Assembly (NCBI GenBank): GCA_016870715.1
Contig: VGAL01000002.1
Span: 34,204 to 98,203, forward strand
Direction of reading: 5' to 3'
DNA length: 64,000 nucleotides
Source of the DNA: Actinomycetota bacterium
GTDB taxonomy: Bacteria; Actinomycetota; Actinomycetes; Nanopelagicales; Nanopelagicaceae
Both the position numbers and the translations under genes were made by a program. The notes under the pieces are model-generated. The model made no database searches. It was not told the origin of the DNA and saw only the letters and a list, made by a program, of their open reading frames with translations. Positions 10,793-47,443 of this stretch are shown here, piece after piece. Position 1 is the first letter of the stretch. Each line of letters begins with the position of its first letter.

Positions 10793-10799
10793 GGAGGAA

Positions 10800-10809
10800 A
10801 GGGTACGGT
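10800..10809. promoter_or_regulatory. Overlapping divergent -10 elements of mshB and the S9 peptidase
   Basis: On the minus strand TACCCT (10800-10805) is seven bases from the mshB ATG at 10792. On the plus strand TACGGT (10804-10809) is eight bases from the peptidase ATG at 10818. The hexamers share two base pairs, so two polymerases cannot occupy both at once. The whole divergent spacer is 25 bases. Confidence 0.5.
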
Positions 10810-10817
10810 GATTTCCT

Positions 10818-31302: not shown

Positions 31303-31308
31303 CCGCTC

Positions 31309-31332
31309 AGGATACGGGTAAAGCGGTACGGT
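31309..31332. promoter_or_regulatory. Divergent leaderless-type -10 elements of the LOG gene and dapD
   Basis: Minus strand: TATCCT at 31309-31314, six bases before the GTG at 31302. Plus strand: TACGGT at 31327-31332, six bases before the ATG at 31339. The two hexamers are 12 bases apart. Confidence 0.5.
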
Positions 31333-31338
31333 GTACTC

Positions 31339-41821: not shown

Positions 41822-41827
41822 GAGGGG

Positions 41828-41834
41828 TACGGTA
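41828..41834. promoter_or_regulatory. Near-palindromic bidirectional -10 element between birA and accD
   Basis: Plus strand: TACGGT at 41828-41833, six bases before the accD ATG. Minus strand: TACCGT at 41829-41834, seven bases before the birA GTG. The two hexamers overlap by five bases in the core TACGGTA, flanked by GTAC on both sides. The whole spacer is 18 bases. Confidence 0.55.
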
Positions 41835-41839
41835 CGGCT

Positions 41840-43411: not shown

Positions 43412-43575
43412 TCAAAATCCTCAAAGGTGCTGGTAACGATTTAGAGATTAAAGCGATTGAGCAAGCGCTCGTGATGCGCACCGCACAATGCGCTACATCT
43501 GATAAAACTCATGGTGAGTACGGCAAACCCATTTTGCGTACCTCCATAGAGCCAGAAAGCGCCGAGCGCTCTTGA
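43408..43575 (+). CDS. accE: Acyl-CoA carboxylase epsilon subunit (AccE-like)
   Basis: A 55-residue protein starting with GTG at 43408, overlapping the accD stop by four bases. Its N-terminus [20 protein letters not shown] matches the small helical epsilon subunits of actinobacterial carboxylases, which follow accD and tether subunits or raise activity. The body is short and the C-terminus polar, without the usual proline-rich or tryptophan end. Identification is from position, size and N-terminus. Confidence 0.75.
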
Positions 43576-43577
43576 TC

Positions 43578-44177
43578 ATGGAAATAATTCTTGCCTCAGC
43601 CTCTAGCGCACGGACCAAGTTGCTGCGCGATGCGAAGATTCCGCACTCTGTTGTAGTGAGTGGAATAGATGAAGAAGCAGGGGTGTTTACCACCCTTTCG
43701 CCGAGTGAAATGGTTCTTGCACTTGCCACTGCAAAAGCGCGAGCTGTTGCTTCCATGAATACTGGAAGGAATGTTCTCGTTATTGGAGCGGACTCGACCT
43801 TGGAATTTGATGGTCGTGCGATGGCTAAACCGGGCAAGGCTGAAGTAGCGATCTCTTGGTGGCAAAATTATCGCGGTCTATCTGGGAAGTTACATACTGG
43901 GCAGAGCGTTATCGATGTGGCTAAAGGAGAGAGTGCGAGCGCGCTTTCGACTACGGAAATTTCTTTCGCCCAACTCACCGATGAAGAGATTCGCTCTTAC
44001 GTCGCCACAGAAGAGCCCTTGTCTCTGGCAGGTGGTGCATCTCTTGATGGAATTGGCTCACCATATATTTCGCATATATCTGGTGATGCCTCAGGAGTTC
44101 TAGGATTAAGCATGAATCACTTACGAGAATTGTTTAGCCAACTTGGTTATCCCTGGCACTCCTTAAGGGCGAAATAA
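43578..44177 (+). CDS. maf: Maf-like nucleoside triphosphate pyrophosphatase
   Basis: 199 residues. [14 protein letters not shown] at the N-terminus is the Maf signature; [10 protein letters not shown] carries the catalytic aspartate and KPGKAEVA follows. Maf enzymes hydrolyse non-canonical nucleotides such as dTTP/UTP or modified forms and are tied to septum control. Starts at TTG 43572 (overlapping the accE stop) or ATG 43578; the ATG is chosen. In many actinobacteria maf lies inside the acyl-CoA carboxylase operon, as here. Confidence 0.92.
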
Positions 44178-44179
44178 GC

Positions 44180-45895
44180 ATGCCAGACATCTCACGAGTC
44201 TTAATCGCCAATCGTGGTGAGATTGCAATTCGGATTGCTCGCGCCGCGCGCGATCATGGAATTACCCCTATTGCTGTCTACGCGGATGGCGATCGAAATG
44301 CCCAACATGTTCTCGCATGTGATGAGGCCTACGCACTTAATGGCGCTACTGCAGGCGAGAGTTACCTCAATATTGAGAAGATAATTTCAGTTGCGCGCAC
44401 TGCACAAGCTGACGCTATTCATCCGGGGTATGGATTTCTCTCCGAGAATGCAACTTTCGCTCAAGCGGTATTCGATGCTGGCTTGATCTGGATTGGCCCG
44501 CCACCTCAGGCGATAGCCGCTCTGGGCGACAAGGTCTCGGCGCGGAAGATTGCCGCGAAAGTTGGTGCTCCGCTCGTTGCCGGAACTGCTGATCCTGTCG
44601 AAAGTTCAGCCGAAGTAATTACCTTCGCTCAACAGCGCGGTCTGCCTGTTGCTATCAAAGCAGCGCATGGTGGCGGTGGCCGAGGCCTGAAAGTTGCTCG
44701 AACTCTGGCGGAGATCCCTGAGCTATTTGATTCAGCTGTCCGCGAAGCCGTTGCCGCATTTGGCAGAGGTGAATGTTTCGTCGAACGATATCTCGATCGC
44801 CCCCGCCACGTTGAGACTCAAGTTCTTGCTGATTCCCATGGAAATGTCGTAGTCGTTTCTACTCGCGATTGCTCATTGCAACGACGTCATCAGAAACTAG
44901 TTGAAGAGGCGCCAGCGCCATTTCTGAGTAAGGCTCAGATTGATCAACTCTATTCGGCTAGTAAAGCAATTATCAAAGAGGCGGGTTATGTTGGTGCGGG
45001 TACCTGTGAATTCCTTGTTGGTCTCGATGGAACTATCTCTTTCCTTGAGGTGAATACGCGATTACAAGTGGAGCATCCTGTGAGTGAGGAGGTGACAGGA
45101 CTTGATTTGGTTCGAGAACAGTTCCGAATTGCCGCGGGAGAGAGATTGTCCTTTTCCGATCCAGAGATTCGGGGTCACTCCATAGAGTTTCGAATTAACG
45201 GTGAAGATCCTGGAAAGAATTTCCTTCCTACACCGGGGGTAATTACCGCGTGGAAAACTCCATCAGGACCTGGGGTGCGCGTTGATTCAGGATTTACAAC
45301 TGGAGATGTGATCAGCGGGAATTTCGATTCACTATTAGCGAAATTGATTGTGACAGGTTCAACTCGCGCTCAAGCGCTCGAGCGAGCTCGTCGCGCGCTT
45401 GATGAATTCGTAGTAGATGGAATCGCCACCGCTCTGCCCTTTCATAGAGCAGTTGTCCGTGATGGCGCTTTTACATCAGATCCATTTCGAGTATTCACTG
45501 GCTGGATTGAGAGCGAATTTGATAATCAGATTCCACCATTTACCGGAACGGCTGAAGCTCACGATGATCAAGTGATTGAACGCCTTGTGGTTGAGGTGGA
45601 TGGACATCGATTGGAAGTGGGTTTGGTCAGCGAGCAACCGAAACGTCGCCGCTCACACTCTGTTCAATCTTTCAAAAATCGAGGGGATGCTCTTACCAGT
45701 CCCATGCAGGGCACAGTGGTCAAGATTGCAGTGCATGATGGTGATGAGGTCGCTGAAGGTGATTTGATCGTGGTGTTGGAGGCTATGAAAATGGAGCAAC
45801 CGCTCATCGCTCATAAGTCGGGACGAATCCATGGATTAGTAATGGCGGTCGGTAGCAATATCGCTAGTGGCGCCACCATCTGTGAGATTAAGTAG
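44180..45895 (+). CDS. accA: Acyl-CoA carboxylase alpha subunit (biotin carboxylase plus biotin carrier)
   Basis: 571 residues, AccA3 type. Biotin carboxylase domain (about 1-445): [13 protein letters not shown], the glycine loop [27 protein letters not shown]. The C-terminal biotinyl domain has EAMKMEQP, whose lysine (about 536) is biotinylated by BirA. It makes carboxybiotin with ATP and bicarbonate for AccD. Starts two bases after maf. It meets the convergent mutase gene with no bases between the two stop codons. Confidence 0.94.
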
Positions 45896-47443
45896 TTACC
45901 AACTCTCTGGAGCGCGGTAACTCCCCCAAGCGCTTCGCAACGCATCTGAAATCTCGCCCACTGTTGCATCTGCAAGTAAAGCCGCTTTGAGTGCAGGAAG
46001 CAGATTCTGATCACTTTGAGCGGTTGCTACTACCGATTTTAGGGAGTTATCAACGCGATCACGATCGCGATTCTTTCGCAACGTAGCCAACTTGGCGCTC
46101 TGTTCATGCGCAACCGATTCATCAACTCGTAAAGGTTTGTAAGGTTCCGCTGGCGATATGTACTCATTAACACCAACAATAAGTCGAGTCTTTGCCTCAA
46201 TTTCTTGCGCAATTCGATAGGAATTCTTTTCAATCTCACTCTTTTGGAATCCTGCTTCCACTCCAGCAACGGCGCCACCCATTTCATCAACTTTATACAT
46301 TAGCGCCTGAATCTCATCAACCAATTCGGTAGTCATACTCTCGACCGCGGCTGATCCAGCAAGCGCATCGACAGTTCGTGCTAAGTCACTCTCATGAGCG
46401 ATCACTTGTTGAGTGCGAAGGGCAAGTAGCGCAGCCTTTTCGGTCGGCAAACCCAGCGCCTCATCAAAAGAGTTGGTATGAAGGGATTGGGTACCACCCA
46501 AAACCGCTGCAACCGCCTGCAGAGTCACGCGTACGAGGTTTAATTCTGGTTGTGCAGCAGTAAGTTGTACACCCGCAGTCTGCGTATGAAATCGAAGGTG
46601 CATTGCACGTTCATTAGTGATGCCATAGCGCTCTTTGATGATTCGAGCCCACACTTGGCGCGCAGCCCGGAATTTTGCAATCTCCTCCAATACAGTTGTT
46701 CGCGCGACGAAGAAAAAACTCATACGCGAGGCGACCTGCTCCACACTCAATCCTCGACTCTGAGCTGCATCGAGATAGGCAATCGCATTGCTGAGTGTAA
46801 ATGCAATCTCTTGAACTGGATTAGCTCCAGCCTCTGCCATGTGATACCCCGAAACTGAAATCGTGTTCCACTTTGGCAATTCACGCGCGCAATAATCAAA
46901 AGTGTCACAAATCAAACGCATCGAAGGCTTTGGTGGATAAATATATGTGCCCCGAGAGATGTATTCCTTCAAAATATCATTTTGAATTGTTCCGCTGATC
47001 TCTGCACCAGGCACACCTTGTTCAGCTGCCACGATCTCATACATCAGTAACAGAATCGCTGCGGGAGCATTGATTGTCATAGACGTTGAAACTTTATCTA
47101 GTGGTATTCCTTTGAAGAGTTGGCGCATATCATCGAGGGAGTCGATTGCCACTCCCACTCGACCTACTTCGCCTAGGGATTGAGGAGCATCAGAGTCAAA
47201 GCCCATCTGTGTTGGCAAATCAAAGGCAACCGAAAGTCCACCAGTTCCAGCGCTTACCAACTGGTGGTAGCGCTCATTCGATTCTTCTGCCGAACCAAAT
47301 CCTGCATATTGGCGCATCGTCCATGGCTTACGTAAATACATCTCTTGATAAATACCGCGAGTGAAGGGAAATTCACCTGGCCGTTCGCCATCTGTGACGT
47401 AATCAGGTTTGATGGGAAGACCCGATTCCGAATTCCAACTCAT
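45896..47443 (-). CDS. mutB: Methylmalonyl-CoA mutase, catalytic subunit without B12 domain
   Basis: 515 residues: the TIM-barrel catalytic part only. The B12-binding domain is a separate gene at 60783-61175. Two residues that decide the substrate are readable: Tyr46 in RQYAGF and Arg164 in ISRGTYIYPP, equivalent by gapless count to Tyr89 and Arg207 of Propionibacterium methylmalonyl-CoA mutase; isobutyryl-CoA mutases have Phe and Gln there. His201 in SGYHMAEAG matches the catalytic His244. It should convert methylmalonyl-CoA to succinyl-CoA after the carboxylase. TAAGAT six bases before the ATG at 47443 indicates a leaderless mRNA, so no cobalamin riboswitch is present. Confidence 0.88.
   Translation of the reverse strand: MSWNSESGLPIKPDYVTDGERPGEFPFTRGIYQEMYLRKPWTMRQYAGFGSAEESNERYHQLVSAGTGGLSVAFDLPTQMGFDSDAPQSLGEVGRVGVAIDSLDDMRQLFKGIPLDKVSTSMTINAPAAILLLMYEIVAAEQGVPGAEISGTIQNDILKEYISRGTYIYPPKPSMRLICDTFDYCARELPKWNTISVSGYHMAEAGANPVQEIAFTLSNAIAYLDAAQSRGLSVEQVASRMSFFFVARTTVLEEIAKFRAARQVWARIIKERYGITNERAMHLRFHTQTAGVQLTAAQPELNLVRVTLQAVAAVLGGTQSLHTNSFDEALGLPTEKAALLALRTQQVIAHESDLARTVDALAGSAAVESMTTELVDEIQALMYKVDEMGGAVAGVEAGFQKSEIEKNSYRIAQEIEAKTRLIVGVNEYISPAEPYKPLRVDESVAHEQSAKLATLRKNRDRDRVDNSLKSVVATAQSDQNLLPALKAALLADATVGEISDALRSAWGSYRAPESW

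Follow-up and report, generated by a model that had tools for sequence, protein, structure and literature searches.

A predicted bidirectional, doubly leaderless promoter between birA and accD in a freshwater actinobacterium

Within the stretch of DNA analysed here (64,000 nucleotides in all, hereafter the window), which comes from a small freshwater actinobacterium, the genes birA (minus strand) and accD (plus strand) diverge from start codons separated by only 18 bp. This spacer very probably belongs to the 18-bp class of bidirectional promoters, in which the two directions share a -10 element; it would be leaderless both ways and serve compact constitutive expression, most likely through a single symmetric -10 element used by both genes. 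The reading is carried by the geometry of the spacer, the enrichment of -10 boxes at leaderless positions, the conservation of the symmetry among relatives and the persistence of the element where one of the start codons has moved, all of which are observed directly. As such, the birA/accD element adds a clear new case to a kind of promoter that bacteria are already known to have.

The birA/accD locus and its predicted promoter geometry

A preliminary description of the locus had placed TACGGT for accD and TACCGT for birA in the 18-base spacer, overlapping by five bases in TACGGTA, and direct reading bears this out exactly, the union of the two hexamers occupying positions 41828-41834 (Table 1). 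Its title, which made accD the biotin carboxylase, has to be corrected, as accD encodes the carboxyltransferase (Carboxyl_trans) and the fused biotin carboxylase and carrier is AccA. The genes run in the order accD, small frame, maf, accA and are closely packed, with accA last; AccA, which carries an EAMKM biotin site, is the probable client of BirA. Family searches with the 55-aa small frame returned no match. Convergent to accA lies a methylmalonyl-CoA mutase-like gene (45896-47443, assigned by eye), so that propionyl-CoA may be a substrate of the accD operon's products, besides or instead of acetyl-CoA. The product of birA conserves the catalytic GRGR and KWPND motifs, and the only domains matched are BPL_LplA_LipB and BPL_C, in agreement with the earlier statement that this BirA has no DNA-binding domain. 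With a catalytic and a C-terminal domain and no N-terminal helix-turn-helix, it is a class I biotin protein ligase as defined in PMC3048393.

Table 1. Features of the birA/accD locus in the window, and related features in comparison genomes
Feature	Coordinates	Strand	Basis or remarks
birA/accD intergenic spacer	41822..41839	.	Whole shared promoter core between both predicted start sites; sequence GAGGGGTACGGTACGGCT
-10 box of accD, TACGGT	41828..41833	+	6 nt ahead of ATG 41840; direct reading
-10 box of birA, TACCGT	41829..41834	-	7 nt ahead of GTG 41821; direct reading
birA, biotin protein ligase, 253 aa	41060..41821	-	GTG start, predicted leaderless; PF03099 + PF02237, TIGR00121
accD, acyl-CoA carboxylase carboxyltransferase subunit, 523 aa	41840..43411	+	Predicted leaderless; PF01039 (Carboxyl_trans), E=4e-201
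Small frame, 55 aa	43408..43575	+	Open frame; overlaps accD and maf; placed where an accE-like small subunit would be expected
maf-like gene within the accD operon	43572..44177	+	PF02545
accA, biotin carboxylase fused to biotin carboxyl carrier	44180..45895	+	PF00289/PF02786/PF02785/PF00364; EAMKM tail
Small TB7.3-like biotinyl carrier protein	L162:17367-17552; G000:C48:1548-1733	- (L162)	ESMKME motif (read in G001)
menE/menB two-way element	L184:17644-17661 = G001 457644-457661		TAGGCTA, 18 bp

The known systems that the spacer most resembles are the bacterial bidirectional promoters described by Warman and Grainger, in which start sites lie 7-25 bp and mostly 18 bp apart, -7T and -11A are reciprocal, and a steric clash blocks the simultaneous binding of two polymerases (PMC10268837, PMC12825309). 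The likeness extends to overlapping -10 elements on opposite strands with reciprocal -11A and -7T (TACGGTA here, TANNNTA in 63 of 67 family rows), to start sites predicted, from the -10 positions and the start codons, to be 18-19 bp apart, and to a location between functionally linked divergent genes, where such promoters are often found. The birA/accD element differs in that it is built from an actinobacterial TANNNT without a -35 box, and in that the start codons coincide with the predicted start sites on both sides. A further difference is the absence of T at -18, which is common but not obligatory in the E. coli class; the base at 41822 is G, and the same column in the family rows reads G42/C16/A8/T1. 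As both start codons lie at predicted start sites, the entire gap would be promoter.

In the mechanism that we envisage, polymerase with what is probably the housekeeping sigma factor would read TANNNTA in both orientations, the -11A and -7T of one direction pairing with the -7T and -11A of the other. Transcription would begin at, or no more than 1 nt from, the accD ATG or the birA GTG, and would yield leaderless mRNAs both ways; a -35 box would be dispensable, as is usual for actinobacterial TANNNT promoters. Only one polymerase at a time would fit on the element, which would make the two directions physically exclusive. At ordinary activity the outcome would be simple, compact constitutive expression of two linked transcription units rather than active balancing.

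Leaderless transcription of this type is well documented in Mycobacterium tuberculosis, where TANNNT lies ahead of 73% of primary start sites, there is no -35 consensus and many mRNAs are leaderless (Cortes et al. 2013, PMC3898074). What the birA/accD spacer has in common with these promoters is a TANNNT within a few nucleotides of the start codon, again with no -35 consensus. Divergent promoters set close together are described as common in M. tuberculosis, and the prpD/regulator pair is leaderless on both sides (PMC3898074), but the start sites of that pair are 120 bp apart and hence no -10 is shared. A literature search on leaderless transcription in Planktophila found no paper. The genome-wide comparison covered 800 kb of a complete genome of the same genus (G001) and 400 kb of another genus (G019), with genes called by a simple home-made caller. 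In the first 400 kb of G001, internal start codons lead one to expect TANNNT 3.6, 6.2 and 3.3 times at 6, 7 and 8 nt, whereas before candidate starts it occurs 54, 27 and 14 times at these distances; other distances mostly have no such excess, and none comes near 54. By sequence, then, TANNNT boxes commonly drive leaderless transcription in the genus, and the boxes of accD and birA, at 6 and 7 nt, both fall within the range. A scan for E. coli-like promoters did not call the birA/accD spacer, because it demands a -35 box and none is present. No Shine-Dalgarno sequence precedes the birA GTG. An alternative birA start at the in-frame ATG 41857, within accD, was rejected, there being no -10 box or Shine-Dalgarno sequence at the right distance; this ATG merely follows from a His codon that accD conserves, and relatives likewise have ATG or GTG at -29.

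Conservation of the symmetry

In a single genome the symmetry could be due to chance, as only one extra A is needed beyond the accD TANNNT. An accD TANNNT becomes two-way whenever the next base is A, roughly a one-in-five event: A follows the leaderless TANNNT at 6-nt spacing at 17 of 100 sites in G001 and 12 of 47 in G019 (17-26%). Random start-codon pairs 18 bp apart gave no two-way element in 673 trials, but this count scores one of the two possible placements, whereas both genuine G001 pairs use the other, and the control is for that reason uninformative.

The preliminary description had proposed that relatives be compared for conservation of the palindrome, and the comparison favours it, TANNNTA being kept family-wide. 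The 7-mer remains TANNNTA in 12 family genera while its middle bases vary (CGG, CCG, CCT, ACC, ATC, TCG, AAG, CCC, CTC and GCG); the rows were chosen by the presence of TANNNT at 6 nt, so the conservation of T1, A2 and T6 is in part a product of that choice, which has no bearing on the -6 A or the -13 G. The A at -6 is present in 63 of the 67 distinct family rows, which are kin by descent and not independent observations, and is accounted for by 2 inferred changes on the tree; on the same tree each of the three middle bases requires 5-6 changes and positions -5 to -1 require 7-12. TANNNT lies 6 nt ahead of the accD start at 81 of 85 family loci. Most family members have a spacer of exactly 18 bp, and in many genera this length goes together with a shared TANNNTA. 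The symmetric base has been lost only in one g10 genome (TACCGTT) and in a subset of group g8 (TAAAGTG). Outside the family, the base after the -10 in 45 leaderless accD promoters is G in 29, T in 10, C in 5 and A in 1. The lone A belongs to a Streptomycetales assembly (L062); no other of these promoters shares a TANNNTA with a birA start at 18 bp, and the two-way element of L062 is apparently an independent case. An A kept in nearly all family rows, against about 20% of other leaderless sites and a single one of 45 outside the family, indicates that the symmetry goes beyond chance. On the accD side, a CTAG ahead of the box is well conserved in many genera and the G at -13 is invariant; these are tighter than two -10 boxes require, and may strengthen the accD direction.

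Lineages in which one of the two start codons has moved serve as natural experiments. In groups g7, g9 and g10, and in most of g8 and g15, the birA start lies at least 19 nt from its box, and nearly all of these genomes keep TANNNTA 6 nt from the accD start. In g6 it is the accD start that has moved, by about 40 nt downstream, and TACCGTA is retained together with a birA ATG at 7 nt. Retention of TANNNTA when either start moves implies that the selected feature is most likely the two-way -10 and not the length of the spacer itself. Upstream of accD, the g6 relatives (L104, L105, L108, L027) have a predicted leaderless frame of 14 codons, MNREKSR..EIEGA, whose terminal TGA overlaps the accD ATG, an arrangement that suggests a leader peptide coupled to accD.

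Alternative readings and the balance of ligase and client

One would have to consider that the box is used by accD only, with the birA promoter inside accD and the symmetry, a -10 that happens to be followed by A, coincidental. Such an arrangement would cost just one base beyond the accD -10, with the 17-26% chance given above, and an in-frame birA ATG does occur inside accD in many relatives. It is nevertheless very unlikely, in view of the A at -6, kept in 63 of 67 family rows with two changes as against 1 of 45 promoters outside the family, the lack of a Shine-Dalgarno sequence before the birA GTG, and the fate of the minus-strand boxes: TANNNT at the birA box position is found in 69 of 73 family rows, whereas at no further minus-strand position up to 110 nt from accD is a TANNNT kept in more than 20 of 73. 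The palindrome might instead be an operator for a repressor of both genes, for example a BioQ- or FasR-like TetR protein. Other actinobacteria control biotin and lipid genes by TetR proteins, the core is palindromic, and some genera conserve its flanks well (CTAGTACCGTA), but flanks and centre vary between genera, where only the -10 positions persist, and the full motif is matched once in each of the sequences examined (the window, the 800 kb of G001 and the 400 kb of G019), with no regulon visible. The operator reading is thus highly improbable. In the divergent bioA/bioB region of E. coli, BirA itself is the repressor. The present locus differs, since its BirA is without a DNA-binding domain and the analysis found no operator; the likeness is that both regions hold biotin-related divergent genes, bioA/bioB being among the bidirectional promoters tested in PMC12825309.

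A separate question is whether the bidirectional promoter has an added function, in that exclusive binding of polymerase would fix the BirA:AccA ratio and lower noise. The preliminary description had suggested that a shared promoter balances ligase and substrate, and for this the comparisons offer no support. In its favour, BirA and AccA form an enzyme-client pair, birA, accD and accA are jointly absent from accD-less family genomes, and interference at an E. coli bidirectional promoter cut cell-to-cell noise (PMC12825309). Against it, mutual exclusion yields anticorrelation and not proportional supply, and the E. coli bidirectional promoters tested had little polymerase competition at basal activity (PMC12825309). 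The same architecture is found at menE/menB, which is not an enzyme-client pair, and BirA probably has at least one further client, encoded elsewhere, in the TB7.3-like protein with its MKM motif. Relatives with non-overlapping promoters in longer spacers, to which the preliminary description had pointed as evidence against its proposal, do exist: outside the family, most actinobacterial accD/birA pairs are further apart and have a -10 box for each gene. The family itself keeps the shared TANNNTA. An added balancing function is accordingly unlikely, and it is quite unlikely that a family-wide, doubly leaderless promoter sets the enzyme/client ratio and lowers noise through the polymerase's choice of direction, with no regulator protein.

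The three genes do occur together: all five accD-bearing family genomes tested have birA and a true accA, and both are missing from all ten tested that have no accD. Nearly complete family genomes without a match to accD, birA or true accA include G005, G021, G032, G020, G031, G016 and others (g2, g17, g13); such genomes may lack an accD-type biotin-dependent carboxylase.

The same design at other divergent genes

A shared TANNNTA with 18-bp spacing is found at 2 of the 92 divergent gene pairs in 800 kb of G001, birA/accD and menE/menB. Of 17 family genomes, at least 15 show the menE/menB element, TAGG(C/G)TA; menB has acquired a leader with a Shine-Dalgarno sequence in several, and in some of these the element is still visible. 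Pairs of -10 boxes that overlap by TA (offset 4, 23-25 bp) also occur, among them one at positions 10793-10817 of the window, where a LmbE/MshB-like deacetylase gene and a prolyl oligopeptidase-like gene (both assigned by eye) diverge 25 bp apart (AGGGTACGGT); an arrangement with overlapping boxes is present too at the G001 ortholog of this pair. At 31303-31338 a divergent LOG-family/TIGR00730-like and DapD-like pair (by eye) has a 36-bp gap with two separate leaderless-type -10 boxes.

For the family, this comparative, sequence-only evidence points to a promoter symmetry that selection has long maintained at one fixed locus, with the outer T, A, T and A constant. Streamlined actinobacteria may commonly economise by the doubly leaderless form, of which menE/menB is a second case, and the simplicity of the pattern makes two-way promoters findable in uncultured genomes.
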